Positions 4,478 through 24,097 of a stretch of 24,097 bases of DNA are shown piece by piece (the first letter of the stretch is position 1; each line of letters opens with the position of its first letter). The position numbers were made by a program, and so were the translations under genes. A model generated the notes under the pieces. It had not been told where the DNA came from and ran no database searches. It saw nothing but the letters and a program-made list of their open reading frames with translations. Source of the DNA: a virus. The stretch lies in IMG/VR virus record IMGVR_UViG_3300020470_001144, positions 1 to 24,097 of that record; one strand, written 5' to 3'.

Positions 4478-4872
4478 TAGCGTCCTCTCTCTAGCATTTC
4501 TTCGATTTCAACTTCCTCTGTGGTATCCTTGATTCTACAGAGAATGAAAACCTTCACGCCATACTCATCTGGAAACGCATCTGTATTGATACGCTCAACA
4601 ACTACTCTTGGTTCTTGGTCTTCAATAGACGATTTCAACTCTTGGTTGATCTGTCCTGCCGTGAACGGAGTATTAGGTTCGAACAACATTCTGTGTATGT
4701 TCGTTCCCAACTGAGGTTGAAACAACCTCTCACCTTTGCGTGTTCTTAATATATTTAAAATGGAGGCTCGGATAGACTGCTTGTTGTCTAATTGAGCTAT
4801 GTCTCCTGTGACTGGATTGACTGCAAGTGAAGCACTAATGTCGGAAAATAGGGTAGGAACCTCTAATGCCAC
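4477..4872 (-). CDS. gp25: Baseplate wedge subunit gp25 (GPW/gp25 family)
   Basis: 131 aa, essentially the length of T4 gp25 (132 aa). This conserved wedge protein contacts gp6 and gp53 and nucleates sheath assembly at the baseplate. Family hallmarks are visible: a helix ending in ILRTRKGERLFQPQLG (residues 41-56), then MLFEP, and later the EPR..V core followed by beta strands (VKVFILCRIK). The start is a GTG, chosen because it is preceded five bases upstream by a clean AGGAGG Shine-Dalgarno that overlaps the stop region of the preceding 1558-aa gene. The stop shares one base with the gp6 start. The preceding gene contains a late-promoter-like CCTAAATA about 77 bases upstream, so gp25-gp6 may also have its own transcript. 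Confidence 0.95.
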   Translation of the reverse strand: MALEVPTLFSDISASLAVNPVTGDIAQLDNKQSIRASILNILRTRKGERLFQPQLGTNIHRMLFEPNTPFTAGQINQELKSSIEDQEPRVVVERINTDAFPDEYGVKVFILCRIKDTTEEVEIEEMLERGR

Positions 4873-4881
4873 TCAGTCCTC

Positions 4882-7800: not shown

Positions 7801-9558
7801 CTTGTTACATTCTGTCATCCCCAAGTTCTGTAGAACAATGAACGTGTTCTTGGAGTTCTGTCCATACAGGATGTCACCCTTCTGAAACTTGTATTGTTCT
7901 TCCTTGACAATCTTTCTCTGTGGCATTCGGCCTGGCAAAGGCATCGCTGGATTGTATCCCGATGGGACAGTGACCATCTGTGATGAGACCTTGGTTGATT
8001 CTGTGATAAGGATCTTTCTTGGTTGGTTGTCCAGTGTCCAGATGTCAGCGATCTTCCCAGCAATGTCTTGAGCGTAATCTTTGATACTTGCACCAAATAC
8101 TAAACCCATGTAGTCTAGGAACTCTGTGGGTATTTCAGAGATTCTTGGTGCACCTGCATACAGAATCATTGCGTGGTATTGTTCTGTTCCAGACCGCATC
8201 GATGCATCCTTGGATCGAGCATAGTCGGCCTGGAAGAAGTATCCTTTCTTCTTCATGTCTACTTGATCTGTGTATCCCAGAAGTTTCGGTCTTCCAAACT
8301 TGTCTCTCATCACGGCACCATAAGGAGCGTAGACTGTCTCCTCTTTTAAATTTCCCAGTTCTGAGTTGACTGAAGATAGTTGTGCCCTGAGAGATGCAAC
8401 CTTCTGTGTCCTTGTTGGTGAGTCGGGTAACGAACCAGCATTTGCAATCAGAGCATCAAAGATACGTGACTTCTTTTGTAGTGAGAAGTATTTCTTCGGG
8501 TCTGATAGTCTTGACTCTGTTCGTGCATTGGCGTCCAGACTAAGGTGTCTCGCAAAGTGTGGTGAGCCTGGTCTGTTCATGTCACCCTCGTCAAACAGTG
8601 CGTTCCCTAACGCATTGAAACACTGGGCTGGAGTCATTCTCACGATACCTGTCACGGCCGCTTTACTGGCGACGTATCCAAATACTTTTCTTTCGTAGTC
8701 CTTGATGAAGTTTCGTGAGGTTCGGAAGATGTTATCGTCTGTTCCACCTGCACCTTCTACACCTGTAGTTCCTATCGCCGCTGCTGGTTCCCCAAGTATT
8801 CTGGACGAGGAAGCTCCGTCTTGAGACAGAGTGTTTCTGTAATAGTCCTTGACTATTTGTTTTCCAAGATCACCATACTCTGCCTTAGTCTCAATAACCT
8901 GCATGATTGTATGAGTTAATAGTCCACCTGTCTTAGATACGTCCAGAACCATCGCGATGATACGTTCTTTCTTCAACTGTTCTTGACTAAGTCCTGTGTA
9001 GTATCCAGTCGATACCCTCTGTTTGATGAACAGGTCAGCTCTCGCCTCGTATACACGAATGAGGTCATCCTTAAATCTTTGTTCTGTCGCCTTCTGCTTT
9101 TCACCACGTGTGGCTTGGTTGTCCACTTCGTTGGAACCTGCTGATCCTCCGTCAGAACTGATCTTGTTCGCTGTAGCGTTCTCTGCACCTATCAGTCCAA
9201 TGATACTGGAATACGATACGGCAAGTCCAGTTTGTAGGAGTGAGCCTGGGTATTGATACTGATCACCACCAATGAATGGTTCCACGCCTGGTGGGACGTT
9301 GGTTGGGTCTATGATGATGTGATAGATTCCTGTCTGGAAGATATCGTTTACGAAACCTTCTATAGAATCGGCTAGGAAGTTTACTGCAATACACATAGGA
9401 TTGATGAATCCTACCATCAGCATTTCTGCAAACTCTAGGTTTGTCTTCGCTAGGGAAGCCACCATTTTGACTGTAGAGATACCATTGTCAACCTGACTTA
9501 AAAAGTTGGCTATCTCTTTAGCTGATGGGGGTGTATTGAATCTACTCCAACTTGCCAC
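4882..9558 (-). CDS. 1558-aa virion protein with helical core and C-terminal beta-sandwich-like repeats
   Basis: Not recognised as a named T4 protein. GTG start with AGAGG six bases upstream; the first codons overlap the preceding small gene by 17 bases. Residues about 30-80 form hydrophobic helices ending in a GIYHIIIDP turn. Residues about 733-803 are strongly hydrophobic and helical, and about 865-918 look coiled-coil. The C-terminal third holds at least three related beta-rich units. Their matching strands are GYSVFLADINR (about 1229), YYKLFFGTYNQ (about 1339) and NYQIFFADVDG (about 1460), each followed by a P.G.(Y/F) strand, which resembles fibronectin/Ig-like domains. A related stretch near 1136 (TDATHLLLFSYGQ) may be a further unit. 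Placement before gp25 suggests a baseplate-associated structural or host-contact protein. That function is inferred from context only; the gene itself is certain. Confidence 0.85.
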   Translation of the reverse strand: MASWSRFNTPPSAKEIANFLSQVDNGISTVKMVASLAKTNLEFAEMLMVGFINPMCIAVNFLADSIEGFVNDIFQTGIYHIIIDPTNVPPGVEPFIGGDQYQYPGSLLQTGLAVSYSSIIGLIGAENATANKISSDGGSAGSNEVDNQATRGEKQKATEQRFKDDLIRVYEARADLFIKQRVSTGYYTGLSQEQLKKERIIAMVLDVSKTGGLLTHTIMQVIETKAEYGDLGKQIVKDYYRNTLSQDGASSSRILGEPAAAIGTTGVEGAGGTDDNIFRTSRNFIKDYERKVFGYVASKAAVTGIVRMTPAQCFNALGNALFDEGDMNRPGSPHFARHLSLDANARTESRLSDPKKYFSLQKKSRIFDALIANAGSLPDSPTRTQKVASLRAQLSSVNSELGNLKEETVYAPYGAVMRDKFGRPKLLGYTDQVDMKKKGYFFQADYARSKDASMRSGTEQYHAMILYAGAPRISEIPTEFLDYMGLVFGASIKDYAQDIAGKIADIWTLDNQPRKILITESTKVSSQMVTVPSGYNPAMPLPGRMPQRKIVKEEQYKFQKGDILYGQNSKNTFIVLQNLGMTECNKIDFDDQGNVINAFKEVQSNQRKNEQEATNSQGGVTQFSAGGQPQQFQVDPTEPIPYTDQTLLIVPYNNDQEKGQFEPQDKEAFKKGELLYLAQEGDDGSIAPNRNVGGADNSFVVGKYVIELTEPDPSAYRIPNSTPPDFGPKYTVADLFPEQAGVLRATILGFCDMLRGFAKNSSSTLGVLIDMLQQLIDFITEIEKSFLEFLNWIKTLVKLADMNIYTTTVSASGIDNFSRELNKLSSRPGAPPGTLEYSTCLMFLGTSADMAGFKSMLESSEAFANFEKAIQDTRSSIDKVLKGFEEDAKDAIKNTLARSDQFVKTLGEGRDDLFNTLNNPMSIANQIEDLTNVFTSDAAKRLGITQEGEGGDGRFGGDTSRSNISDLDNPRFQVGSRGIGDFVLDDFESAGLDGIDLEAARLKAGYRRDAANGIVDSRFLGLDDDEFLAMATKKEFYWVVKVARETAQIENNQGIIRYKLWWGKEIESAVGIQTEAVSTGGRTIQIGEDGTLVTSSGQELVTSTGFTPAVYEKIEKIHTFDITTGIDTDVELEVEVNVGANFKPTDATHLLLFSYGQVTKTLGGLEYIFEAENENPYAMEIMSLRPDMPEIAVDENISSVSISENKIINLDVTITDTDENGEGGTSTTLGYSVFLADINRKTFSEPIATLVRTGTTNQLVLTDVEVDPTLNPGWYYLAILAENQNGFSGGNMFNLSRISAPLDFAKEITYTDTNVVAGSLSGIVEVEPGQHTSQNGIDPYYKLFFGTYNQTKNTIATTGTQLYQDVNFRLLNANGNLEFSLANESIPSGVTHFVVYSSIKKFANSSQEIYHTTPVFKPINDLGSAPNYSPVTLAFTDEDKVTGQISGTFTIGPALDEQLVDNYQIFFADVDGVPIDTAGNQGVNNATPIHDDAIAELTPTVTGVQVPQGAVYFQACSKNAYGTGPFFARIPIVDPKYPTEPGEISNITKNNVRLTTNF
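4949..4956 (-). promoter_or_regulatory. Possible late promoter upstream of gp25
   Basis: On the minus strand the sequence reads CCTAAATA, six of eight matches to the T4 late consensus TATAAATA. The same 8-mer occurs on the minus strand in the divergent gap at 18482-18489. If used, transcription would start near 4943, giving a leader of about 70 bases before the gp25 GTG. It lies inside the coding end of the 1558-aa gene, so it could be coincidental. Confidence 0.3.
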
Positions 9559-9799
9559 GTTTTTCCTCTAATGCTTGTTTGAGTTCCTGAAGTTCTTCAC
9601 GAATCGCTCTGTTGTCACTTATCAAGGCGTCGATCTCACGAATGATACCTTCAGGGTTGTAGTTTTCCAACATGGGACGCCACTCAGTTTCCAGTTTTGA
9701 TTCAGTGTCAACTGATTGTATCAACTGGTCCGTAGGTTTTGTAGACTTTTCGCTTTTTGGCGACATCGTCATAGATGGATTGGATATTGTTAATCGCAT
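9542..9799 (-). CDS. Small coiled-coil protein, start uncertain
   Basis: Up to 85 aa from the first ATG (9799), but that start would overlap the end of the 1007-aa gene by 92 bases, unlike any other junction here. Later candidates are ATGs near 9772 and 9766, a TTG near 9724 that overlaps only the last few codons and has GGA five bases upstream, and an ATG near 9658 without a ribosome site. The unambiguous part is the C-terminal half (from MLENYNPEGIIREID onward), a charged heptad-like helix ending in KQALEEKRGKLE. It fills the only space between two giant structural genes in the same operon, so it is likely a real small chaperone or coiled-coil virion component. I do not recognise the family. 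Confidence 0.55.
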   Translation of the reverse strand: MRLTISNPSMTMSPKSEKSTKPTDQLIQSVDTESKLETEWRPMLENYNPEGIIREIDALISDNRAIREELQELKQALEEKRGKLE

Positions 9800-12731
9800 T
9801 CTTGATACCTTTTATTTCACCTGTTGACCCAGACAACATTGTAGAAACTGCTGCATACAACATACCTGAGTAAGACTTCGCCCCAATCTCTGGTTCAGAA
9901 CCAGAAGGACCAGCGACAAAAATGTGTGGAACACCTATTCTTGCACCTATGTTAGCCGTGTAGGCATCGACTGTGTCTCTCCACGATTCAAAGTGGTCCT
10001 GTAACATTGATGTGCTCACATTTCCACCACTGTCTGTGATCTCCGCATCTGCGGGTGGTGACCATGTTTGTGGGTTTACTGACAGTCCAAAATTTGTCCA
10101 GAAGTCATTGTTATAAGTATTTACTGCTCTAAAAACTACGGCCTTCGCCTTAGCGTAAGTATTGAACGTAGCGTCTGTAGTCTTGAGTGATCCGACTCGT
10201 GTCAGTGGATAAGTTCCTGAAACTGTGTTATAATCAAAGTCATAGTGAAACTGATCCTCAAATGTCAGATGGTCCTCACTCCAGTTCGTTGGACTTTCTA
10301 GATTCGCCAGACAGTTGATTACATACTGAAAGTCGTTTGTGTTATAGTATCCATGTGACGCTGAAACAGACATTCCAGATAGTGAGGTCTTGAATAACTT
10401 CCTCATCGTATTGACGTTGTGATCGTAATATTCACTATTGACAGTCAGAGTAAAGTATCGTCTATTGTCACCAGCAAGTGTAATAGGATTTCCACTGCCG
10501 TCTGTCGTGGTATAGAAGTCGTTCACGTGAAATGACTGGTGAGCCTTGACACGTATTATGTGTTCTCCATCATAGGTAACACCTGACTGTGCAACTCTAC
10601 CCGCTAGATTTTTGACAAACCATTCACCCACAATCAAATCGGAACCTTCAACAACTTGACCTGTCTGTCCGTTGGCAATGTAACCCGCAGTTGAACTTGA
10701 GGCGCCTGGTCCAGCAAAAGGTGAGTCGTTACCTAGAGCCTGACCTGTATCCATCAGTGGTCCGTAAGTGTTATCTGCTGGTGGGTTTGCATTCGTTGAG
10801 CCTGGGATAGTCCAGTCATTGTTGAAATTCCAATTTGCACCTGTACTCAGTTGTCCGTTCTTGAGTCTCTGGAAAGCTGGGTCGATACGTGAAATAGTAT
10901 CACCTGTTTGATATGTACTTCCGCCTGGGACCAATCCGTGACTGATGTCCTCCAAAGGACTGACTTGGTATGTCCACCTGTGAAATGAATAGATGATGTA
11001 GTCGATCTCTGTAGGTCTCAGTAGGTTGTACTTTACGAATGTATTCGCGTACGGCATTTGATCTGGGTACTGATAAGCTGCGTCAACTGCTGGGTAGTGT
11101 GGATTGAGTTCAACGTCTGGGAAACACTCGGCAAGTCTTGACTGACCAGCATCTATGGATGTTTCGTATTGTTGTCTTCCGTTGTGTGAATCGTTGATGT
11201 CAGTTGGTGTAGACGTAGAGATGATATCTGGGTTAGCAGATGCTATTGACGAAACTGAGTCATCGCTCAAATAACCCAGATACCCCTCCCATGTTGCCTG
11301 GTCCATCTTGGTTACGTCTTGATCGCTCAATGTCAGAAACCCTGTTCCGTTGTACCAGTTGTAATTGATCTGTAGTCCACGGGCCGATGACACGGCAAGA
11401 AGTCCAGTCGTGTGTGGTTGGACTGATCCGTCTTGGTTTCCATCCTCATCCAATGGAGACATTTCCACCCACCTCTTGAGACCAAATGTCTGTAGAAGTG
11501 TGGGATTGGTGACGTTCGCCGATGGTGTAACTCTTGGTTCTTCTGGTTGTCCTGAGACTTGGTTCGCTATCCCCTCCTGAAGATTGTATCTCATGTAGAG
11601 TTTTGCTGGCTGAAGTGTGGTAGCTTCTGTGTAGAAGTCCACGTTCATCGTTGCGTAGTCTTTGATGAAGTAGTCTTGGTTGTTTGCCCCTCCAGCGTTC
11701 TCGTCAAACTCGATACTCGCCGCGTCTAGTTTCCAGCGGAAGGCTGGGACTGTGGATGATATCAGTCCCTTTGCCGTGGAAGTCAATCCACGGATTTCCT
11801 TCCCAGTAGTAATCACTGCTGGTTGCTGGAGTTCTAGATTCGCGGTCTGTCCTGCAAATGCCACTGTGTTCGAAATCTCATCAATCAAGAACGTGACAGT
11901 CATAACGTCTGTGTTTGCTTCCTGTATCTCGTAGATGACCGCACTGTCTGTTCCAAGTACGACTGTCTCACCTATGATGAACGCGTTCTCTGGACTGACT
12001 GTATTCAGGAACATCTTGATCGTGGGTTTGGCGACATACCTGTCCATCACGGCTAGGTTCTCATCGTTCAGTTTGAAGTCAAACCTCATGTCTGTCGCCG
12101 CTGTTGGATCTTCTGGTTCTGGTCCATACGGAATGTCGTTGATTGTATTCGCTGGTAGGAACGGAAGATTGAGGTATGGTGTCGGGTTGTCATCAAAGTC
12201 TACAATCGATCCTGTATTCTTGTCCCTTACTAGGTAATAATTTCCTGCATAGTTGGAGAACGAGTTCGCAATCAAACCTGTAGGTGATGGTGTGTAGACT
12301 GTAGTATTCGAGACTGTATTTGTTGATAGTGAAACCTCCTGCGTCGCGTCCATGTCTGTCAACAATACGGAGACTGCCAGTCCTGCCGATGATGACAAGT
12401 CTGGTGGAGAGGTGAATACACCTGAGTCTAAGTCATACTTGAGGACTTTGTCTGGTGAGTATCCATAGAGAATAGCACGTTTCTGTCCTAGTCTCAGACA
12501 AGTCTCATGTAGTGAGAACTGTAGTGTATGTGATACGGCACCATTCACATCGTAGAAGTCCTGCATCTCTCGTGCCCCAAGGGCGGAGAGGAAACCATCT
12601 GAGTCAGTAAACAACTCATACATGGCGTAGAACTTCTTTATCACTTCTGCTCGTTGTTCAACGACTGTCTGCGGAGCACGCATCAGATCGTCATGAGCAC
12701 GCTTTGCCTTTTCTTTCCTGAAAGCACCCAT
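9708..12731 (-). CDS. 1007-aa unknown virion/baseplate-associated protein
   Basis: The frame is open upstream to 12866, but I place the start at the ATG at 12731 (MGAFRKEKAKRAHDDLMRAP). That ATG shares one base with the stop of the preceding gene (TAATG), as at six other junctions. The extra 45 N-terminal residues would lie wholly inside the preceding gene and have an unphage-like, Arg/Cys-rich composition. The N-terminus (about 1-60) is a charged helix (RAEVIKKFYAMYELF). The body is long, Asn/Thr/Tyr-rich and probably beta-structured, with a GETVVLG..SAV turn near residue 250. The C-terminus returns to helices. No enzyme motif or named family is recognised. Its location between spike genes and gp25 argues for a tail-associated structural role. 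Confidence 0.8.
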   Translation of the reverse strand: MGAFRKEKAKRAHDDLMRAPQTVVEQRAEVIKKFYAMYELFTDSDGFLSALGAREMQDFYDVNGAVSHTLQFSLHETCLRLGQKRAILYGYSPDKVLKYDLDSGVFTSPPDLSSSAGLAVSVLLTDMDATQEVSLSTNTVSNTTVYTPSPTGLIANSFSNYAGNYYLVRDKNTGSIVDFDDNPTPYLNLPFLPANTINDIPYGPEPEDPTAATDMRFDFKLNDENLAVMDRYVAKPTIKMFLNTVSPENAFIIGETVVLGTDSAVIYEIQEANTDVMTVTFLIDEISNTVAFAGQTANLELQQPAVITTGKEIRGLTSTAKGLISSTVPAFRWKLDAASIEFDENAGGANNQDYFIKDYATMNVDFYTEATTLQPAKLYMRYNLQEGIANQVSGQPEEPRVTPSANVTNPTLLQTFGLKRWVEMSPLDEDGNQDGSVQPHTTGLLAVSSARGLQINYNWYNGTGFLTLSDQDVTKMDQATWEGYLGYLSDDSVSSIASANPDIISTSTPTDINDSHNGRQQYETSIDAGQSRLAECFPDVELNPHYPAVDAAYQYPDQMPYANTFVKYNLLRPTEIDYIIYSFHRWTYQVSPLEDISHGLVPGGSTYQTGDTISRIDPAFQRLKNGQLSTGANWNFNNDWTIPGSTNANPPADNTYGPLMDTGQALGNDSPFAGPGASSSTAGYIANGQTGQVVEGSDLIVGEWFVKNLAGRVAQSGVTYDGEHIIRVKAHQSFHVNDFYTTTDGSGNPITLAGDNRRYFTLTVNSEYYDHNVNTMRKLFKTSLSGMSVSASHGYYNTNDFQYVINCLANLESPTNWSEDHLTFEDQFHYDFDYNTVSGTYPLTRVGSLKTTDATFNTYAKAKAVVFRAVNTYNNDFWTNFGLSVNPQTWSPPADAEITDSGGNVSTSMLQDHFESWRDTVDAYTANIGARIGVPHIFVAGPSGSEPEIGAKSYSGMLYAAVSTMLSGSTGEIKGIKNAINNIQSIYDDVAKKRKVYKTYGPVDTIS

Positions 12732-13204
12732 TACGTAATTGGTCCTGAAAATGGTATTGGAGTTGGGGCGGGTATAACGCCCGATGCGGTTGAGGACATA
12801 CAGTATGAACTCACCGCACTTGTGAAACCTGCGATCCAGACACTTGCTGGGCCTGGGACTGCACAAATAGGTTCAAGGGCCGATTGTAAAGTCGTTGGTA
12901 CGGCGACCACTGGACCTATTTGAAATAAAGTCTGAACTGAACTCCACGCTGTGTGTATCGCAGTCGTGAGGTTCATAACAAAGATTGATGGTGCGGGAAC
13001 TGGGGCCGACATCGCTGCTTGAAGTTGTGATAAAGCAGCGGGGAAGGCGGGCATCGCGATAAACGGACCTCCTCCCATGTTCATTGCACCAAGAGCGTAC
13101 GCCTGAAACGCATTCATAATGGTCATCGCTGTGATGGACCCACTAGGAACTGGAGCGTTCAGAGGTTGTAACGCTGATTGTAATGTCGCTGGTACTAATG
13201 CCAT
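12731..13204 (-). CDS. Ala/Pro-rich three-repeat protein; candidate spike-tip protein
   Basis: 157 aa with no recognised family. It starts three bases after the gp5 stop (TAGAAATG), and its own stop shares one base with the next start. The chain consists of three tandem units beginning near residues 4, 54 and 102. Each opens with (V/F)P..L...L and continues through a V/A-P-x-P or VPSGSI-like turn into a hydrophobic helix ending near a glycine (compare TLQSALQPLNAPVPSGSI with TLQSALEPICAVPGPASV). A GP..A.P linker joins the units, and the C-terminus FSGPIT looks like the opening of a fourth. T4 has the PAAR protein gp5.4 at the tip of its gp5 spike, and PAAR proteins are monomers with pseudo-threefold symmetry. 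Position and threefold internal repetition suggest an analogous role here, but no PAAR sequence motif is visible. Function is inference. Confidence 0.75.
   Translation of the reverse strand: MALVPATLQSALQPLNAPVPSGSITAMTIMNAFQAYALGAMNMGGGPFIAMPAFPAALSQLQAAMSAPVPAPSIFVMNLTTAIHTAWSSVQTLFQIGPVVAVPTTLQSALEPICAVPGPASVWIAGFTSAVSSYCMSSTASGVIPAPTPIPFSGPIT
12773..13195 (-). repeat. Three tandem ~48-50-residue coding repeats
   Basis: Coding repeats within the Ala/Pro-rich gene, with starts near residues 4, 54 and 102. Units 1 and 3 are most alike and share TLQSAL(Q/E)P. At the DNA level they keep short similar runs (near 13165-13195 and 12870-12900), but there is no long perfect identity, so the duplication is old or under protein-level selection. 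Confidence 0.7.
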
Positions 13205-13206
13205 TT

Positions 13207-15144
13207 CTATCCCGCAAACATAGCCTTCTTACTCAGAAGGGTCATTACTTTCGCTGCTGTTGTGGGTGGAGTTGTCGGTCCCACCGCTGATAAGTGAACG
13301 TGAGCGGCGTATTCAGCAGCGAACTGAGCACCTAATACCGCTGGTTCTGTTCCGATAAGACCACCTATCGCGATTCCGTATGGTAGTCCTGCTTGGATGG
13401 AAGTCATAAGTCCACCCTGTATTTTCATAATCAGTCCAGCGTTCAAGTTCATCGCCAGACCACTGGAGATGTTTGTTACCAGACCAGACTTCATGTTGAT
13501 GAGTCCTGCCGCTTGCATGTCTATTCCAAGTGGGGCCGTGAGTGGGTTGAGTTGTATGTGTACAACCCCTGACGGATCACTAGGTAAGAATGGTGGACTG
13601 GGAATAGGAGCAGCTTTTACCATCAAACTGATGTTACCCAGTTTTGGGTTACCTGTGTTTACTTTCAGTTCGATGTTACCCTGCATAACTTCGATCTCTT
13701 TACCAGCCCAATCCGTGCCTGGAACCTTGTAGTTTCCAAGGAACTCATTGGTGTAGAACTCTTTCGAACAAGCTGCGTTTACGTTGAACTGACCCTTCGG
13801 GGCCATCACCATGTTACCTGTAGACTCAGCTTTGAAGGAAGTCATCGCGGACATCTGTAAAGTCGCCGCATTTATAATGTGATCTCCCTTTGTTTTGTGT
13901 TCATATTTGGAAGATGTATCGTATCTTTCAGCGGCGTTTACATACATATTACCCGCCTTACCTCCCTTACCTGCGGACATCTCTAGGTCTTGACCTGGCT
14001 CTGTCGCAACTCCGCCTGGAGCTTTGAGAACAATCTGTCCTGTGTCTGACTGTATTACTGTGTCTCCAGCCGCTCTCATGACCAGTGAACCAGAGAGAAC
14101 ATTTACACGAAAACCTCCGTCAGCACTGATTGAGTGAAGACCTTTGGTTCCCTCGTACCTGTTCCCCATAGCAGAATGATAAAAGGACTGCATCGTTCTG
14201 TCCACCCTACTTCCGTCTGGATGGAAGTGAATGTGAGATGTAGACCTATGTTGTATCAGTACACGTTCCGCGTCAAGTGTATCGTCAAGTTCGAATAGGT
14301 GACCTGACTCTGATTCTTTGGCATGGTTGAATGGATACTTGGCGTTGAACGGATCACTTGGTTCGTTCCATACGTGTGGTACTCCAGCCCCACCAGAGTC
14401 AAACGATGACTTGGCGATTCTCCATCCCTTTGCGTGTGTCGCTGTCTCCATCCTCAGTCGAGCTGGGGAAGGGGCAGGTGAGATGTCTTTCGCCGTAGAA
14501 CTAGACTGATCCTGTATCCACTTGTGACCTCCAAGAGGATGGTCCATACCCAACGCTGTCAAAGGAATCGTGGGTCGACCAAAGAAGTGTAGTGAAGGAT
14601 ATGGAGTTGGCTGTAGTGGTGTGACTACGAGTTGAGCCTGCTGAGTAACCATCAGACCTTTAGGATCTAACTTCGTACCTTCGGCAATGTAGTCCACTGA
14701 CATTGGTTTTTGTGGATACCCTGTGTTAGGATCTCCACCCACGGAATCCTTCTGAACTGGATTCTCTGGGTCACCTGTGAGTTCGTAGACTGCCTCTCTT
14801 TTTGCCCATCGATTGTCTGCGAACGCACCTCTTCTTTTCGAGCCTGGTGTTTCAGGTATGCCTGGAATCGTACCCATAAAGATAGGTTCCTGCATGTCTT
14901 TCCCATCACGAAAGAAACCCATCACCCACGTTCCCTCTACTGGTCCTGTGGGTGATTCACCAACTCCTGTTTGGGATGCACTTGTGACTGGTGCCAAAGG
15001 CAGAGCCCAAGGAAGTGTTTCAGTCGGTTGTTCGGAGATGTCGTGTGAGTGATAACCAAAAGCCCTGACTTTACACCTACCAAGGCGGAGTGGGTCCATC
15101 CTGTCTTCAACTACTCCTGTAAACCAAATAAACTGATCGTACAT
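13207..15144 (-). CDS. gp5: Baseplate central spike / hub protein gp5 (no lysozyme domain seen)
   Basis: 645 aa. The N-terminal OB-fold is diagnostic: WFTGVVEDRMDPLRLGRCKV (residues 7-26), close to T4 gp5, followed by LPWALPLAPV and WVMGFFRDGKDMQEPIFMG. gp5 is the trimeric membrane-piercing spike below the gp27 ring. In T4 a lysozyme domain (about residues 174-342) follows the OB-fold. Here the corresponding stretch is Pro/Thr-rich, then SHIHFHPDGSRVDR, with no lysozyme motif that I can see. From about residue 330 the sequence is beta-helix-like. Near the end GL pairs recur exactly every eight residues (554, 562, 570, 578, 586), the trimeric beta-helix octad. H615-V-H617 resembles the HxH iron-binding tip of P2 gpV-type spikes. 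Start ATG overlaps the preceding stop (TAATG). Confidence 0.92.
   Translation of the reverse strand: MYDQFIWFTGVVEDRMDPLRLGRCKVRAFGYHSHDISEQPTETLPWALPLAPVTSASQTGVGESPTGPVEGTWVMGFFRDGKDMQEPIFMGTIPGIPETPGSKRRGAFADNRWAKREAVYELTGDPENPVQKDSVGGDPNTGYPQKPMSVDYIAEGTKLDPKGLMVTQQAQLVVTPLQPTPYPSLHFFGRPTIPLTALGMDHPLGGHKWIQDQSSSTAKDISPAPSPARLRMETATHAKGWRIAKSSFDSGGAGVPHVWNEPSDPFNAKYPFNHAKESESGHLFELDDTLDAERVLIQHRSTSHIHFHPDGSRVDRTMQSFYHSAMGNRYEGTKGLHSISADGGFRVNVLSGSLVMRAAGDTVIQSDTGQIVLKAPGGVATEPGQDLEMSAGKGGKAGNMYVNAAERYDTSSKYEHKTKGDHIINAATLQMSAMTSFKAESTGNMVMAPKGQFNVNAACSKEFYTNEFLGNYKVPGTDWAGKEIEVMQGNIELKVNTGNPKLGNISLMVKAAPIPSPPFLPSDPSGVVHIQLNPLTAPLGIDMQAAGLINMKSGLVTNISSGLAMNLNAGLIMKIQGGLMTSIQAGLPYGIAIGGLIGTEPAVLGAQFAAEYAAHVHLSAVGPTTPPTTAAKVMTLLSKKAMFAG
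13366..13506 (-). repeat. Octapeptide repeats of the spike beta-helix
   Basis: Residues 547-593 of gp5. GL dipeptides occur at 547, then at 554, 562, 570, 578 and 586, with Gly at 594. Spacing is exactly eight from 554 on. This is the rise of one strand per chain in a triple-stranded beta-helix, as in the VxGxxxxx repeats of T4 gp5. Confidence 0.8.
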
Positions 15145-15395
15145 TATCTCCGTCCACCACCTTGCATCATCTGCCCAGACATACGTGCTGTATCTCCCTG
15201 CATTTCATACACGGCGTGTTCTAATGATGCCATCGTCTGTTCGATTTTGATGGCGTTTAATTTATGCATGTCCTGTACCTGACTCTGCATCTTTTTGATT
15301 GTTTGATGCTGGTCAAAACACAGATAGGCGAAGAAACCTAAACATAACCCCGCTAAGCCATGAGTTGACAGTACATCAACTAAAGCGTCAACCAT
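15144..15395 (-). CDS. Small single-TM protein, BhlA/UviB holin-like
   Basis: 83 aa. An AGGAG Shine-Dalgarno lies six bases before the ATG and overlaps the gp27-like stop; the stop shares one base with the gp5 start. Residues about 13-27 (GLAGLCLGFFAYLCF) form one hydrophobic membrane-length segment. Residues about 31-66 form a charged, heptad-like helix, and the tail is GGGRR. One N-terminal TM helix followed by a cytoplasmic coiled coil is the plan of BhlA/UviB-type holin-like proteins, so a lysis or membrane-disrupting role is possible. Alternatives are a membrane-active hub component or an assembly anchor for the baseplate. The gene is well supported; the holin label is a structural analogy, not a confirmed match. 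Confidence 0.7.
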   Translation of the reverse strand: MVDALVDVLSTHGLAGLCLGFFAYLCFDQHQTIKKMQSQVQDMHKLNAIKIEQTMASLEHAVYEMQGDTARMSGQMMQGGGRR

Positions 15396-15404
15396 TATTT
15401 ACTC

Positions 15405-16967
15405 CTAAGATGATGGTCCCACGTTTGGTGGGTCCAGTTCGTGAAATGTAACTTGTTTGTACACATCCTCGTCAAGAGGGTCCAAGCCAGGATTAGACTG
15501 CGAAGTCCTTTTCTCCTGTTTCACTGCAACTCCACCCGCTACTGGGTTACCTGTAAACGGACTCACGTTTTCTTCTTCGTCCGTAGTCAGGTTGAGTGCT
15601 TCATCAATGTTCTGCAATAACGATTCTTTTACCAATCTCACTTTTAGCTTGTACAAACCCCCTATCAAAAGGTGGTCCATTCCTGTAATGAGATACTTCC
15701 CACTTGTCAATCCATTGAGTGAGGTGTCCATACTTCCAGCCTTCGATGGAATGAAGACATAACAGAGTGACCCTGTCTCATACTCAGCATTGTATGGTAC
15801 TATGGCCTCCATTTGCAGTTGTCGTATCTGTTCCAACTGCGAAGTTCTATGCATTGTCGAAAACCCCTCTCCACCCAAAGCATTGACTGGAGCGTCATCA
15901 TGACTTCCCGAAATTGCCTTCACCTGCACTTTCGGAAATTTGCCCTGTCGTTGATCCGCGTCAGGGTCAGGGTTCAGAAAAGATACTGATGAGTTCATCA
16001 GATTACGTGCATAAGCGTGTCCTTGCTGTTTACCCTGTTTATCGTAGAAATAATCGTAGTTCAAGACTGAGTGATGTATGTAGTCCAACCCTACGACTCT
16101 GTTCGCTATCATTCCGTTCTCAAGTTTACTGACAGAGTCGAATAGTTGTGGGAACCCATACTCGTCTGGTATCATCTGTTCGTATTGGTTTTGTGGTCCA
16201 TCTTCGCCTGGGTTTCCAACTCCTGCTGGGACCAGATGCATCTGAGGAACCTCTTGTTGCATGTCAGTCTCTTGGAACTCGTTTGTCTTCTGTAGTATCG
16301 TTTCAATCGACTTGAAGTATGACCCATGCATTGACTCCCAGAAGAAGTAGAGTGCCCCCTTCGAACCACGTTCAAGACTTATCGCCTTCGTCGCCAACCA
16401 CTCCAGTGTGTCGTGTGGTGTCCAGCCTGGACAACAGAAATTCAACGACCCTTTTGTTTCTTCCACTTGGAGTTCCTTCTCGTAACCTTTGAACCTCTTG
16501 GAGAGCGGTTGTGATATCCATCCCTCGTATACGTCCGTCGCTATTCTTGAAATAGGTGTCTGGTTCCATCCTCCGTATACCTTCGTCTTTTTAGATTGAA
16601 AATATTCTGGTGTCGCGGCATGAATCGTGTATGTTTGTGCCGTGGGTTTTACATCCTTGAGTTGTCCTACCTTGTAGACGTAGAACAACTTACGAAAAAC
16701 TCTAGCTGGGTTACCTGTAGAAACGCCTGGTCCGTCAGTCCACGAGAAGAAGATCATCTCCTCACCTATCATAGGCATCTGTTCGTGCAAAGCGGCTGAG
16801 TCTTCAACCACGAGTTTGAGTGTCACGTATGGTTGATACAGACTCTCCTTCATGATGATAGACTGGACATGGTTACCCAAGTCAACAAAGTTCTTCTGTC
16901 CAAAGTCCATGATGGTCAACTCTTTGATCTGATACGCACCACGAACTGGACCTTTGATGTTCTCCAT
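15405..16967 (-). CDS. gp27: Baseplate hub protein, gp27-like
   Basis: 520 aa, longer than T4 gp27 (391 aa). gp27 trimers form the torus that adapts the sixfold tube to the threefold gp5 spike. N-terminal features fit a hub/tail-tube-like fold: IKELTIMDFGQKNFVDLGNH, then a strand-rich VTLKLVVEDSAALHEQMPMI and GEEMIFFSW, followed by FRKLFYVYKVGQLKD and YTIHAATPEYF. The middle has GWTPHDTLEWLATKA and GALYFFWES, typical of hub proteins of this superfamily. The C-terminal ~100 residues are extended, acidic and Pro-rich. It lies two genes ahead of gp5 and directly after gp53, and starts by TAATG overlap with gp53. Family-level call is good; exact orthology to T4 gp27 is inferred from fold pattern and position. 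Confidence 0.75.
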   Translation of the reverse strand: MENIKGPVRGAYQIKELTIMDFGQKNFVDLGNHVQSIIMKESLYQPYVTLKLVVEDSAALHEQMPMIGEEMIFFSWTDGPGVSTGNPARVFRKLFYVYKVGQLKDVKPTAQTYTIHAATPEYFQSKKTKVYGGWNQTPISRIATDVYEGWISQPLSKRFKGYEKELQVEETKGSLNFCCPGWTPHDTLEWLATKAISLERGSKGALYFFWESMHGSYFKSIETILQKTNEFQETDMQQEVPQMHLVPAGVGNPGEDGPQNQYEQMIPDEYGFPQLFDSVSKLENGMIANRVVGLDYIHHSVLNYDYFYDKQGKQQGHAYARNLMNSSVSFLNPDPDADQRQGKFPKVQVKAISGSHDDAPVNALGGEGFSTMHRTSQLEQIRQLQMEAIVPYNAEYETGSLCYVFIPSKAGSMDTSLNGLTSGKYLITGMDHLLIGGLYKLKVRLVKESLLQNIDEALNLTTDEEENVSPFTGNPVAGGVAVKQEKRTSQSNPGLDPLDEDVYKQVTFHELDPPNVGPSS

Positions 16968-17512
16968 TATTTAAATATCTTTCCGAGTTCTACTAGGAGT
17001 TTAGGCAGAAATGCTTCTTGTGGTAGTATGATTTCTCGTTTGCTTTCGTTTGCATCGACCTCAAATTCAAACTTTGTCACGACACGTGCTGGGCCTGGAC
17101 TCTGTGTCTGGTCCCTGAGTTGGACGTATCTACTGTGGTCGATCTCATTTCCACGTGAATCTTTGTATGTGTGGACCGCAGCTTCGGCACCTGCGACTGA
17201 TCCATAGATGTCCACCATTCTCTTGGTCAACTGTTTCTGGGACAATGGCCAGTCTGTGTAAGGGTTGAAAATGTTATTGACGAACATGATTACCCAGACG
17301 TACTTGACATCTCCATACGTATTGTAGGATGTTACGTCTGGTCGTTCTCCGTCAGGAATGTAGTAGGGCATGAACTGACGAACCATGTCGACCTTTGACC
17401 CACGAAATTTGGCTACACGTGTGAGGTCAGGTACTAACTGGAACTTACCTGTCTTGTCTATGTCGAACTGAACCTTCTTGAAGTTCTTGAAATATCCTGT
17501 ATCTGAAGCCAT
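16967..17512 (-). CDS. gp53: Baseplate wedge subunit gp53
   Basis: 181 aa; T4 gp53 is about 196 aa. In T4, gp53 joins neighbouring wedges and contacts gp25, gp6 and gp27. Recognisable features are the N-terminal MASDTGYFKNFKKVQFDID, the Y..YGDVKYVWVIMFVNNIFN stretch (residues about 64-83), and the signature YTDWPLSQKQLTKRMVDIYGS (from residue 85), which is the family's (Y/D)WPL...F motif region. The ATG at 17512 shares one base with the gp48 stop (TGATG), and the stop shares one with the gp27-like start. The C-terminal half is less conserved and ends in a hydrophobic/basic tail. No anomaly seen. Confidence 0.88.
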   Translation of the reverse strand: MASDTGYFKNFKKVQFDIDKTGKFQLVPDLTRVAKFRGSKVDMVRQFMPYYIPDGERPDVTSYNTYGDVKYVWVIMFVNNIFNPYTDWPLSQKQLTKRMVDIYGSVAGAEAAVHTYKDSRGNEIDHSRYVQLRDQTQSPGPARVVTKFEFEVDANESKREIILPQEAFLPKLLVELGKIFK

Positions 17513-18450
17513 CAGTACCCCTTGAAAATGTCAGCTTGTGTGAGTTTGACTGTCTCCTGAAATGATATAGTCAGAGACACGGCTGACGGCATTCCATCTT
17601 CGTAGAAGGTAGGCATCATCGCACCTGTCCCTGCAAAATCTACGTCCACTGATTTCAGGACACAAGTCTTGAATCTCTGTATCGGTTTGTATGAAGATGT
17701 CCCTGAAGCCTTTACTGTTCCTTGGTGTTTAGCCTCACTGCCATCCCTTGTGTATACAAAAATCTCAGGGATAACCAGATAAGGTATCTTCCATACACCT
17801 TTGAATGCTTCTCCTCCTACGTCAGCCATTCCAGGCAAGATACCCAACTTGAACACTCTACAGATGTCCTGTATCGCCTTTGATTCTTCAGCATTGTCTG
17901 GTATCATCAACCACGATGCTGTAAAGGAACGAAACTCTGGACCTGTGTAGATCATGAAAGTGTATGGATTCTTGACTGTCTTGGTCATTCTCTGGATAAC
18001 CCCCTGTACAGCACCTCCGCCTGGGGCTAAGTTTCCAAGTGTCGCTAGGTTGTTCGTAGCGTTCTTCGCCGTATCTCCTGCATCTGATCCCTTAGAACCA
18101 GCGACGGCGTTCTTGACCTTGTCCATCAGTGACGATGTCTTGGAACCAACATCATTTCCCTGTCCAGCAAGACCCGCAGCTTCTAGTGCCGCTCGTGTCC
18201 CTGCCCCTACGTCACCAGTATTATAACCAGCAGAATAGGTTGATTTCAGTGGATCTTTCGGTACAGGTAATGCAACTGTGTACTTGAGTGTCTGGGCAAA
18301 ATCGGTTGTTAAATCACCTTGGTCAACAAAGTAGAACATAATAAAGTTTTTCTCATACTTCTCCGCATTCGATGGGGAGTTACCAGCGAGATATTCAGGC
18401 CACTTAACGAATGTTGAACCAGTAGAATTAAGTTGATTAGGTGTAGCCAT
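17512..18450 (-). CDS. gp48: Baseplate tail-tube cap gp48
   Basis: 312 aa; T4 gp48 is 364 aa. gp48 sits on the hub and, with gp54, forms the platform from which the tail tube grows. The best evidence is the C-terminus, SLTISFQETVKLTQADIFKG, which parallels T4 gp48's final strand (FTLEITMREIITLNRASLYT). The tube-like core has FRSFTASWLMIPDNAEESKA followed by IQDICRVFKLGILP and a PYLVIPEIFVY strand. Residues about 70-150 are a Gly/Ala/Lys-rich linker, as in T4. ATG at 18450 with AAAGGAGA about eight bases upstream. It is the first gene of the leftward operon, immediately downstream of the divergent promoter palindrome. gp54 has been separated onto the opposite strand. Confidence 0.85.
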   Translation of the reverse strand: MATPNQLNSTGSTFVKWPEYLAGNSPSNAEKYEKNFIMFYFVDQGDLTTDFAQTLKYTVALPVPKDPLKSTYSAGYNTGDVGAGTRAALEAAGLAGQGNDVGSKTSSLMDKVKNAVAGSKGSDAGDTAKNATNNLATLGNLAPGGGAVQGVIQRMTKTVKNPYTFMIYTGPEFRSFTASWLMIPDNAEESKAIQDICRVFKLGILPGMADVGGEAFKGVWKIPYLVIPEIFVYTRDGSEAKHQGTVKASGTSSYKPIQRFKTCVLKSVDVDFAGTGAMMPTFYEDGMPSAVSLTISFQETVKLTQADIFKGY

Positions 18451-20394: not shown

Positions 20395-21132
20395 ATGAAA
20401 TTACCAAAACTTGATGTTAGAATGTTTCAAGTGGCACTTCCGTCTACAGGACAGAAGTTGACCCTTAGACCTTTTCTGGTATCAGAAGAAAGAATACTAT
20501 TAGAAGCGGCGAGGACAGAGAATCAAGTCGAGATCGCTAATGCAATGAAACAGATTGTCAACAACTGTGTGACAGAGGAACTGGACCTAAGTAAAAATCC
20601 TACCTTTGACATGGAGTACATTTTTGTACAACTCAGAGCACAGTCCGTTGGTGAAACACAAGAAGTCTCCTTTGAGGTTGACGATCACGATACAGCCAAA
20701 GGAATGAAGTGTGAAGGTGTCGGACAAACAGTCGAGGCATCGATTGACCTATCAAAGTCAAAGGTCAACAACCTAGACAAGGCCAAGAACAACAGTCGTT
20801 TCATGATTACAGACAACATTGGCATAGAGATGAGGTATCCCACACTGGAAGATACAGGAGACATGACTCAGCAGGATGTCGACACGATGTTCGCAATGAT
20901 CAAGACCTGTATCAAACAAGTGTACACCACTGATGGGGATATCTACGAGCCAGACCAGTTGGATGAAGGTGAACTAGACAACTTCATCAACTCAATGAAC
21001 ACTGGTCAGTTCGCAAAGATAAATGCTTTCTTTGAGGACATGCCTAAACTTGGGTTGGACGTTCCGTACAGATGTCCAGTCTGTAGTAAACCTATGAGTA
21101 AGTACCTAGAGGGGATGGCCTCTTTTTTCTAG
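20395..21132 (+). CDS. gp26: Baseplate hub subunit gp26 (T4 baseplate family; tape-measure chaperone-like)
   Basis: 245 aa; T4 gp26 is 208 aa. Required for hub assembly, and by position it is the counterpart of the small tail-assembly chaperones encoded just before tape-measure genes. Family features: KLPKLDVRMFQVALPSTGQK then LTLRPFLVSEERILLEAART, the MKQIVNNCV helix, and FDMEYIFVQLRAQSVGE. The C-terminus has C227-P-V-C230, a probable zinc knuckle half, then KYLEGMASFF and a stop. The last two Phe codons with the preceding base form T TTT TTC, an in-frame -1 slippery heptamer directly before the stop. A frameshifted product would continue into gp51, giving about 345 aa. The upstream ribosome site is weak (TTGAG). 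Confidence 0.9.
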   Translation: MKLPKLDVRMFQVALPSTGQKLTLRPFLVSEERILLEAARTENQVEIANAMKQIVNNCVTEELDLSKNPTFDMEYIFVQLRAQSVGETQEVSFEVDDHDTAKGMKCEGVGQTVEASIDLSKSKVNNLDKAKNNSRFMITDNIGIEMRYPTLEDTGDMTQQDVDTMFAMIKTCIKQVYTTDGDIYEPDQLDEGELDNFINSMNTGQFAKINAFFEDMPKLGLDVPYRCPVCSKPMSKYLEGMASFF

Positions 21133-21147
21133 TATGCGTGGCTCACG
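21108..21147 (+). promoter_or_regulatory. Programmed -1 frameshift signal, gp26 to gp51
   Basis: Components in order: an SD-like AGAGGGGA tract (21108-21115); eight bases after its GGGG run, the heptamer T TTT TTC in the gp26 frame (21123-21129); an immediate TAG in frame zero (21130-21132); and, seven bases after the heptamer, a short hairpin CGTG-GCT-CACG (21137-21147). A -1 slip reads CTA GTA TGC GTG GCT, entering the gp51 frame with no stop. Upstream SD-like tracts stimulate -1 shifting in E. coli dnaX. The hairpin is only 4 bp and may contribute little. Confidence 0.7.
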
Positions 21148-21431
21148 ATAACCTTGAGAATATGTTGAGGACAGATTTTGCCCTCATCAAACATCATGGG
21201 TACACGCAATACGACCTGAACCACATGGTTCCATACATTAGGAAGGTCCACATACTATTGTTGATGCAACATCTACAGGAGTTGGAACAACAGCAGAGGG
21301 GGCAGGAACCAGGCGGTGGACAACAATTGTTTGGTGGCGCTTCATTCGCGAATGAAGATGATATAAGTGAAATCATGAGTGGAGACCAGCAATGGAAAAC
21401 TATAGAATCTAACGAAAATGCATTGGAGTAG
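21138..21431 (+). CDS. gp51: gp51-like hub assembly protein, probably expressed as a gp26-gp51 frameshift fusion
   Basis: 97 aa if it starts at the GTG at 21138; an ATG at 21162 is the next choice. T4 gp51 acts catalytically in hub assembly and lies beside gp26. The visible core is DFALIKHHGYTQYDLNHMVP followed by RKVHILLLMQHLQELEQQ, a helical pattern like that of gp51 and other chaperone extensions. The tail is Gln/Gly-rich, then acidic. No Shine-Dalgarno precedes the GTG (the purine-rich tract is 23 bases away), and the ATG has only a weak GAG. The frame is -1 relative to gp26 and is entered cleanly from the slippery site, so translation as a fusion is likely. Much shorter than T4 gp51 (249 aa). 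Stop is two bases before the tape-measure ATG. Confidence 0.75.
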   Translation: MAHDNLENMLRTDFALIKHHGYTQYDLNHMVPYIRKVHILLLMQHLQELEQQQRGQEPGGGQQLFGGASFANEDDISEIMSGDQQWKTIESNENALE

Positions 21432-21433
21432 TT

Positions 21434-24097
21434 ATGCCAGAGGCATCAATACCAGGCGATAGAAATCCAAAGAATTCCTTTGATGACGTAGTCCGTGAAC
21501 TACAGGAAATCAAAGAGAATGACGAACAGTATTCTAATGATAATACTGAACTCCTTCTTCAGATAGACGAAACTATTCAGAAGACATCCGATGCCTCGAT
21601 GTCTCAACGAAACGTCATCAACAACATTATGCAATACCAGACAGAACTGTTTGGTAAACTCTCAGACTTCGCCGAGATGAACAACAAGGCGATGCTCGAC
21701 CAAGCTGAAAATCTAAAGAAACTCAGCGAAACTCCCAAAGAAAAGAAAGACGATAAGAAAAAAGACGCTCCATCTGGTGACGTTCAATCTGACCTACTCA
21801 AGTCACAACTAGAAACAGCAAAAACCTCAAATAGTATTCTAGATTTCTTAGTCAAACAAGCTGATCAAGCGAAGAGAGATAAACTCGCTGATGCACGTCA
21901 GGCTGGTGCAGCTGGAGGTGGAACAGACGTAAAGAAGGAAGCCAAGAAGGGTGGACTGATCGGTGGTATCTTCCGTGCTATCGGAGGTGCGTTCAGTATG
22001 ATCGGAGGAATCTTCAAAGCGATCGCTAAGGTCGGTCTTGGTTTCATCAAGGGGATGGGTGCATTGGGTGCTGGTATCGCAGCTTTCTTTGTAGGTTTCG
22101 CAGCGATCGGGTCAGCGATGCAATTCGCTGAGAGTGCTGGTGAGGGTGTCGTAAAAGTAATGAAGAACTTTTTTGATGCCTTCAATGGTGTAGGTGTAGA
22201 AGGACTCGCCGCTTTTGGTATGATAATCGGTGCTGGTGTAATCACCTCTAAACTTGGTGCGACAGATCAGATAAAACTTCTGACTGGTATGACTGCCCTT
22301 GGTGCTGGTATCTCAGGATTCTTCACAGGTCTTTTACTGGGTGACCTTGTCGCTAAGTTGGGGCAAGCAGTTGGAATAGATGGTGGTAGTATCAAGACAC
22401 TGATGCAAAATGTATTCGGTGCGTTCGATGGAATCAAAGGAACAGCTACACTATTCACGATCCTTGGTCTAGGGACAATCATCGCCCTTGGTGGAAAGAA
22501 GGGTGTAGAAAAAGATATCATGAAGGGTATGACTGCCCTTGGTGCTGGTATCGTTGGATTCATGACTCCCTTCGCAGTAGCAGACGGATTGACCAAACTA
22601 TTTGAAGTAGACGGAGAGGGAATCAAGAAACTGATGCAGAATGTCTTTGGGGCATTTGATGGTGTGTCAACTGTATTGATTACTGGTGTGATGGCTATCG
22701 GTGCAGCGATCGCTAAGTTCAAAGTGGACGGAAAGGCGATGGCGAAAGGTATGGGAGCGTTGGGTCTTGGAACTCTCGCGTTCGTGGGTGTATTCGCCGT
22801 AGCTGATGCTGTAGTAAAAGCCGCTCTCGCAGGTATTGAGGTTGCAGGTGGTGGTGATTTCTTAGCAAAGATTCAGTCAGTCGACGCGTCCATCATGAAG
22901 TCCGCTATCGGAAGTTTTGTCGGTGCATTTGAAGGTGTATCGATCTCGGCAACGGCGATGGGAGCGCTTTTCGCTGGAGGAGTCGCTGTAGCGAAACTGA
23001 ATGTCGGACCTGGCAAACTGATCAAAGGAATGGGTTCACTCGCTGCTGGTATCCTAGCCTTCTCCGCTGTATTCACAGTCGCAGATAAGATTCTTGGATT
23101 CTTCCTACCCAATGTGGAAGGCGGTGATCCGATGGCAGTCGACATGAGTAACGTAGAACGTGTAGTCGGTGGGACATTCAAAGTCTTATCATCGATTGAC
23201 ACAGTAACACTTGGTGCGATTATCCTAGCTGGTGCGTTGATACCGATGACCTTCCCGATCAAGATGGGTCTATTAGGTGCTGGTCTTGCAGCTTTTGCAG
23301 GAGCGGCGGGAGGTATCGCCAGTATCTTCGCAGAACTCGGCGTAACTGGTGATGACTTCGTTGTCCTCATGACGAACATTGGTAAAGGTGTGGGTGGACT
23401 CTTGGGTGGAGCCTTCAGTGAATCACTTACCCTGTTATCTGATCTAGACGGAATGAACCTCATCAAAGTCGGTGCAGGAATCGCCGCTATCGGTGCTGGT
23501 CTCGCTGTGTTCGCAGGTGGTGGACTCGCAGCTTCGTTGGCTGAAGGGGCAAAGGGTGTCCTTGGTGCGATGAAGAACTGGTTCTCAGGTGAAGATCCAA
23601 AGAAAGATGACCCACTAGACGCACTTGGACCACTACGTCCATTCGGTGTTCTCGCTACTCAAATGCCAGAAGGGTTTTCCGATAAGTTATACGCTATTGG
23701 CGAAGGTATGGGTGGTATAGCAGATGCCTTTGTCGTATTCTCAGAAGGAAAGATCAAGTCTGGTATCGGTAACATCATGGGACAGAAAGGTTCCTTTGAT
23801 GGTTTCGTTGACCTACTGATAAAACTCAGTGCGAAGGACATCAACGGAGAACAGATACAGAAGGCTCTTGAAGGTTTTGCAATAGGAATGGAGAAGGTCG
23901 GTGCCGCCGCTAGTCAAGTGAAAGATTTGAGATCGCCAGGATCACCGAAAAGTCTGGGTGGACCTGCAGGAGGGAAAACGGAAGTAACCCTTACTCAAGA
24001 TCAAGCAAACGAAATCGGGAAAATCTTCAGGAAAGGTTCTAAAATGGACAACTTGAGAGACCTAAGAAAGTATCTCAAGATGGAAGGTTTCAGTAGA
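21434..24097 (+). CDS. gp29: Tail-length tape measure protein (gp29-like), C-terminus cut off by the window edge
   Basis: Open from the ATG at 21434 to the right edge, 888 codons without a stop; GGAG lies five bases upstream. The N-terminal ~150 residues are charged and coiled-coil (FDDVVRELQEIKENDEQYSN, later LFGKLSDFAEMNNKAM), ending in a Lys-rich linker (PKEKKDDKKKDAP). From about residue 175 the chain becomes Gly/Ala/Ile-rich hydrophobic helices arranged as repeats with (K)GM.ALGAGI...F at residues 208, 286, 366, 440, 533, 611 and a weaker copy near 679. Position directly after gp26/gp51, length and repetitive hydrophobic helices are characteristic of tape measures, which occupy the tube lumen, are ejected on infection and set tail length. 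It is already longer than T4 gp29 (590 aa). No peptidase or lysozyme motif is seen in the visible part. Confidence 0.88.
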   Translation, partial: MPEASIPGDRNPKNSFDDVVRELQEIKENDEQYSNDNTELLLQIDETIQKTSDASMSQRNVINNIMQYQTELFGKLSDFAEMNNKAMLDQAENLKKLSETPKEKKDDKKKDAPSGDVQSDLLKSQLETAKTSNSILDFLVKQADQAKRDKLADARQAGAAGGGTDVKKEAKKGGLIGGIFRAIGGAFSMIGGIFKAIAKVGLGFIKGMGALGAGIAAFFVGFAAIGSAMQFAESAGEGVVKVMKNFFDAFNGVGVEGLAAFGMIIGAGVITSKLGATDQIKLLTGMTALGAGISGFFTGLLLGDLVAKLGQAVGIDGGSIKTLMQNVFGAFDGIKGTATLFTILGLGTIIALGGKKGVEKDIMKGMTALGAGIVGFMTPFAVADGLTKLFEVDGEGIKKLMQNVFGAFDGVSTVLITGVMAIGAAIAKFKVDGKAMAKGMGALGLGTLAFVGVFAVADAVVKAALAGIEVAGGGDFLAKIQSVDASIMKSAIGSFVGAFEGVSISATAMGALFAGGVAVAKLNVGPGKLIKGMGSLAAGILAFSAVFTVADKILGFFLPNVEGGDPMAVDMSNVERVVGGTFKVLSSIDTVTLGAIILAGALIPMTFPIKMGLLGAGLAAFAGAAGGIASIFAELGVTGDDFVVLMTNIGKGVGGLLGGAFSESLTLLSDLDGMNLIKVGAGIAAIGAGLAVFAGGGLAASLAEGAKGVLGAMKNWFSGEDPKKDDPLDALGPLRPFGVLATQMPEGFSDKLYAIGEGMGGIADAFVVFSEGKIKSGIGNIMGQKGSFDGFVDLLIKLSAKDINGEQIQKALEGFAIGMEKVGAAASQVKDLRSPGSPKSLGGPAGGKTEVTLTQDQANEIGKIFRKGSKMDNLRDLRKYLKMEGFSR
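22055..23500 (+). repeat. Tandem ~68-93-codon coding repeats in the tape measure
   Basis: Repeat starts (the ATG of GM.ALGAG-like motifs) lie at 22055, 22289, 22529, 22751, 23030 and 23264, with a degenerate copy near 23468. Spacings are 78, 80, 74, 93, 78 and 68 codons. Two copies share 27 identical bases (22286-22312 and 22526-22552), and both carry a KTLMQNVFGAFDG or KKLMQNVFGAFDG block, indicating recent duplication of that pair. Confidence 0.75.

Follow-up and report, generated by a model that had tools for sequence, protein, structure and literature searches.

We found that gp26 and gp51 of the phage DNA analysed here (a stretch of 24,097 nucleotides, referred to as the window) very likely constitute one coding unit, in which a minority of ribosomes would slip into the -1 frame at the end of gp26 and thereby yield a long chaperone, gp26-gp51. 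Judged from sequence, gp26 and gp26-gp51 are very probably the counterpart of the lambda G/GT pair. Both the -1 frameshift joining the two genes and the equation with G/GT had been proposed in an earlier note on this DNA, and both are supported by conservation among relatives, by selection and by homology to T4 gp51, as detailed below.

Anatomy of the slip site

The 3' end of gp26 reads GAG GGG ATG GCC TCT TTT TTC TAG and the protein ends in ...GMASFF. Direct reading confirmed the earlier description of an in-frame T TTT TTC followed immediately by the zero-frame TAG (21123-21132), with the SD tract AGAGGGG eight bases 5' of the heptamer (Table 1). Among 7919 codon positions in the main ORFs of the window, an in-frame T_TTT_TTN occurs a single time, at the gp26 site; for any given gene, such a heptamer would fall within its final four codons with a probability of about 5e-4. 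From 21102 to the stop of gp51, the -1 frame is open and hence runs into this gene stop-free, as had been claimed; the -1 ORF can be reached without a stop and is coding.

Table 1. Features of the window at and around the gp26/gp51 junction and in the baseplate block
Feature	Position	Strand	Remarks
gp26, predicted short tail assembly chaperone (TAC-N, G-like)	20395-21132	+	PF12322, E 1.6e-56; phrog_150, E 6.5e-59
SD-like stimulator AGAGGGG	21108-21114	+	8 nt 5' of slip site
Slippery heptamer T_TTT_TTC	21123-21129	+	read directly; register X_XXY_YYZ
Zero-frame stop TAG	21130-21132	+	abuts slip site; read directly
Weak 4-bp hairpin CGTG-GCT-CACG	21137-21147	+	7 nt downstream; CGTG/CACG arms, 21137-21140 with 21144-21147
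Predicted -1 extension (gp51, TAC-C, T-like)	21129-21431	+	100 codons past slip, LVCVAHDNLENMLRTDF...; stop 21429-21431; phrog_634, E 4.7e-13
Next ORF, at least 888 aa, cut by window end	21434-24097	+	Gly/Ala-rich, ten hydrophobic segments
gp6-like	2612-4477	-	baseplate block
gp25-like	4477-4872	-	baseplate block
Wedge subunit	16967-17512	-	baseplate block
Tail tube cap	17512-18450	-	baseplate block

According to the mechanism we propose, most ribosomes would terminate at the gp26 TAG, releasing the short form of the chaperone. Others, fewer in number, would be slowed by pairing of the AGAGGGG tract with 16S rRNA, presumably through SD-induced pausing, and the tRNA-Phe on UUU and UUC would re-pair with UUU UUU in a putative tandem slippage. 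The slipped ribosomes would read on as ...SFF-LVCVAHDN... to 21431 and produce gp26-gp51. If the division of labour is as in lambda G/GT, the tape-measure protein would be coated by the short form, and tail tube subunits would be recruited by the long one. We infer the occurrence of slipping, its frequency, the ratio of the products and the G/GT-like roles of the two products from these features.

Conservation across relatives

The comparison covered 177 distinct gp26-domain loci from IMG/VR and phage records, 172 of which carry an in-frame heptamer near the gp26 3' end. In these 172 loci the first Phe codon is invariably TTT, the second Phe-site codon is TTC (157), TTT (13) or TTA (2), and the base preceding the Phe codons is always T even though the amino acid varies, the codon in front of FF being AGT (80), TCT (39), AAT (21), GAT (18), GCT (12) or another NNT codon (GGT and TTT, 2 in all). 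Based on the codon usage of the same genes, the odds are about 1e-11 for NNT before FF and about 1e-7 for TTT as first Phe codon (53 clusters, 70% identity), figures that are only rough, given the residual relatedness among clusters and the restriction of the count to heptamer-bearing loci. The arrangement is kept across phages of Kyanoviridae, Pelagibacter, Methylophilales, Vibrio, Aeromonas, Cronobacter and Stenotrophomonas. The five loci without a heptamer are T4 gp26, T4 gp51, those of two Ackermannviridae phages and that of Vibrio phage D495; single-copy tandem loci lacking it number only three.

Throughout, gp51 lies in the -1 frame relative to gp26 and is unbroken, apart from three loci cut by contig ends. 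The comparison of gp26 3' ends that the earlier note had called for thus bore out its expectation with regard to heptamer, frame and SD tract, the latter residing at a gap of 7-9 nt. The same note had named two patterns among relatives that would speak against its proposal, and we searched for both: no tandem relative whose gp51 lay in frame 0 or +1 turned up, and none of the relatives combined a lost heptamer with a good gp51 ribosome site.

In Ackermannviridae (loci L217-L234, L042 and L048), gp51 is found in the -1 frame after ATT TTC ATT TAA, where the site is NTT TTC and not X_XXY_YYZ. Most of the Ackermannviridae phages examined have the junction TAATT, devoid of ATG, GTG or TTG, and Dickeya-type phages have TAATG. 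ATT TTC or CTT TTC is the sequence after which gp51 continues in the -1 frame in Ackermannviridae and a Vibrio phage. The start-less junctions together with the NTT TTC site suggest that a non-canonical shift operates in Ackermannviridae, possibly a single-tRNA slip resembling that of T7 gene 10. With somewhat less than even confidence, we suggest that a -1 shift may be ancestral for the long chaperone and may have outlasted the loss of the canonical heptamer, the T4 branch having escaped it by gene duplication and frame fusion.

Stimulatory elements

The duplex of the AGAGGGG tract of the window with the anti-SD has an energy of -6.3 kcal/mol. Family-wide, anti-SD pairing is strongest where 7-9 nt separate it from the heptamer, with a mean of about -6 kcal/mol compared with about 0 further upstream. 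When the same peptides were resampled synonymously, none of 200 resamplings was as strong, the mean best anti-SD energy being -6.45 as observed and -4.62 (sd 0.20) after resampling. Synonymous selection keeps the upstream SD tract stronger than the protein needs, and in this selected tract the family possesses the stimulatory element expected of a programmed -1 site.

The short hairpin that the earlier note had pointed out is present seven bases 3' of the heptamer, but at -2.6 kcal/mol the CGTG/CACG pairing in the window is no better than that of shuffled sequences (z 0.07). In the family mean, 50-nt windows starting 5-10 nt past the heptamer are stabler than shuffles (z -1.36 at +5 nt, -1.23), while the mean z of other 50-nt windows around the heptamer is near 0. 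The downstream folding tendency is therefore a property of the family average, absent from the window taken alone.

Coding of the -1 frame

Upstream of GTG 21138, the -1 frame of the window contains no ATG, GTG or TTG. The candidate gp51 starts GTG 21138 and ATG 21162 both lack an SD (best duplex about 0 to +1 kcal/mol), in agreement with the claim that gp51 has no usable ribosome site of its own. The phrog_634 family matched by the -1 ORF is designated 'baseplate hub assembly catalyst'. Over the first eight codons past the zero-frame stop, relatives show 2597 synonymous and 2069 nonsynonymous differences when compared in the -1 frame, the counts for the two other frames being 479:5346 and 304:5022. 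At 29 distinct loci, the first 13 codons of the -1 frame are free of ATG, GTG and TTG; these start-less loci keep the pattern FF-x-[ILV]-...-L-x-x-Y and exhibit synonymous to nonsynonymous ratios of 167:148 in the -1 frame versus 80:179 and 25:261 in the others. At one locus (L019), the entire 63-codon -1 ORF is without any of the three start codons. The -1 frame is thus selected as protein from the slip site onward, 5' of any start codon.

In the records of Cronobacter phage S13, Aeromonas phage Ah1, P-RSM1 and S-CAM8, gp51 is unannotated, leaving gp26 separated from the following gene by a gap, as would be expected if gp51 is reached only by frameshifting.

Two genes in place of a slip site in T4-type phages

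Both T4 gp26 and T4 gp51 are counted among the hub assembly chaperones, the latter being needed for assembly but absent from the particle (PMC3004832). Like its counterpart in the window, T4 gp26 is a short PF12322 protein, and T4 gp51 matches the conceptual gp26-gp51 fusion; in contrast to the window, T4 has two divergently transcribed genes and no slip site. In the 249-aa T4 gp51, the gp51 tail comes after a PF12322 domain (residues 1-201), and both phrog_150 and phrog_634 match the protein. A profile alignment between the conceptual fusion and nine T4-type gp51 proteins spans the junction (E 4e-25), and the tails of these proteins are matched by the -1 part on its own (E 5.5e-12); T4-type gp26 proteins have no gp51 tail. 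A single PF12322 copy was present in all 16 heptamer genomes examined and two copies in all nine T4-type genomes, in none of which the short gene has the heptamer. Two PF12322 copies, the missing heptamer and a long gp51 that matches the fusion indicate that T4-type phages encode both forms separately.

In an unrooted domain tree, the T4-type copies all group together (99/94) and the long copies form one group (100/98); Miro and SemperBestia have short copies that sit on long branches. In these two phages (a Slopekvirus and a Pseudotevenvirus, respectively), the long (gp51) and short (gp26) genes are arranged in tandem upstream of gp25, as opposed to the divergent genes 26 and 51 of T4.

The T4-type proteins also bear on the suggestion, made in the earlier note, that the terminal Phe-Phe of gp26 is kept because its codons are the slip site. 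This is mainly but not solely the case, and retention of FF purely for the slip site is ruled out by the gp26 proteins of T4, CIP9 and KP182, which keep the FF end as TTC TTT without a slip site. Some protein constraint on FF therefore remains in some lineages of frameshift-free gp26; other T4-type gp26 proteins have FL, FV or FM in its place.

Protein fold and neighbouring genes

The AlphaFold (AF2) model of gp26 has a mean pLDDT of 88.8. Among 829 chains re-aligned to it, the best Z scores were obtained for 3fgx (8.2), HK97 2ob9 (7.5) and YqbN 3klu (7.3), followed by 3.3 for the next chain, and all three matches are confined to the N-terminal 90 residues. YqbN is, we take it, a phage-type tail assembly chaperone. 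The model thus suggests that the N-terminal domain of gp26 moderately resembles the solved tail assembly chaperones HK97 2ob9 and YqbN 3klu, a likeness that we count as supportive only because Foldseek alone returned no significant PDB match for the model (2ob9, E 1.1). A search of solved structures by sequence gave rubredoxin as its sole match, which was judged to be due to chance. The combination of a short protein and a longer form sharing its N-terminal part, by which a TAC-N/TAC-NC pair is recognized, is encoded here by the proposed single unit and in T4-type phages by two genes of the same domain content.

The ORF following gp51 had no match in Pfam, PHROGs or 50,697 phage records (tblastn). 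By position and composition it is a plausible tape measure candidate. The minus-strand baseplate block (window positions 3-18450) faces gp4, gp2, tail tube/gp54 and gp26/51, which form a block on the plus strand.

Alternative explanations

The fusion could also arise at the level of the transcript, through an extra or a missing U introduced by RNA polymerase on the T6 run. Six T are a possible slippage site, and one added base would give the -1 frame. Such a run is short for strong transcriptional slippage, however, and neither the selected SD tract at its 7-9 nt spacing nor the strict codon register of T_TTT_TTN would be explained, making this origin of the fusion very unlikely. In another scenario, gp51 is initiated separately at GTG 21138 or ATG 21162, where ribosomes that have finished gp26 would start again through translational coupling; the heptamer would then be a by-product of a conserved FF end. 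An ATG is present at the fourth -1 codon in about half of 162 relatives, many cyanophage records annotate gp51 separately from an ATG a few codons past the slip site, so that some independent initiation may take place there, and a start can sit near the gp26 stop, where reinitiation is possible. On the other hand, a start with a good SD within the first 12 -1 codons was detected in only three of 53 clusters, and the candidate starts of the window are SD-less as well. SD strength and start-codon placement thus argue against independent initiation, as do the 29 loci start-less in their first 13 codons, the one that is start-less throughout, the invariant NNT before FF and TTT as first Phe codon, and the presence of both segments fused in one frame in T4-type phages. 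Taken together, separate initiation is a highly improbable explanation.

That the heptamer and the -1 overlap came about by chance, gp51 being a decayed or unused ORF, is already refuted by the purifying selection and the broad conservation from Kyanoviridae to Stenotrophomonas phages, and we give it practically no credence. Translation of gp26 and gp51 as one unit through a -1 slip is the reading that we retain.

Discussion

Frameshifting is reportedly conserved in several groups of T4-like phages, and T4 is said to use genes 26 and 51. A frameshifted chaperone in T4-like phages is already in print, and the window adds an uncultivated marine member. Tail assembly chaperones of T4-like phages were identified by Vladimirov, Gautam and Davidson (Virology 2022; cited in PMC10885494 and PMC12846349); according to the PRFect paper (PMC10885494), which refers to the same study, in some T4-like phages a gene for the short chaperone and a fused gene for the long one take the place of frameshifting. 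The genes and the idea of a short and a long chaperone are the same in those systems and in the window. Measured here were the synonymous selection on the SD tract, the start-less -1 ORFs and the split between one-copy and two-copy genomes.

The likeness to lambda G/GT consists in a short protein with a presumably rarer -1 extended form, and in a shift site near the end of the first gene, ahead of a putative tape-measure gene. The heptamer differs and the sequences are unrelated, and the conserved SD-like stimulator is a feature of the window family. In this latter respect the cassette resembles E. coli dnaX, whose homopolymeric heptamer likewise has an SD tract about 10 nt upstream and a structure downstream. 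Unlike dnaX, with A_AAA_AAG and a strong hairpin, the window has T_TTT_TTC and merely a weak local folding tendency.

The proposed reading would mean that the gp26/gp51 annotation is wrong in many T4-like phages, among them cyanophages, Pelagibacter phages and several phages of Vibrio and Aeromonas, two 'baseplate hub' entries representing one frameshifted chaperone unit. It would also explain the essential, non-structural gp51 of T4 as the long form of the chaperone. Frameshifting in one part of the family and gene duplication in the other would then offer a natural comparison for how the ratio of the two proteins is set.
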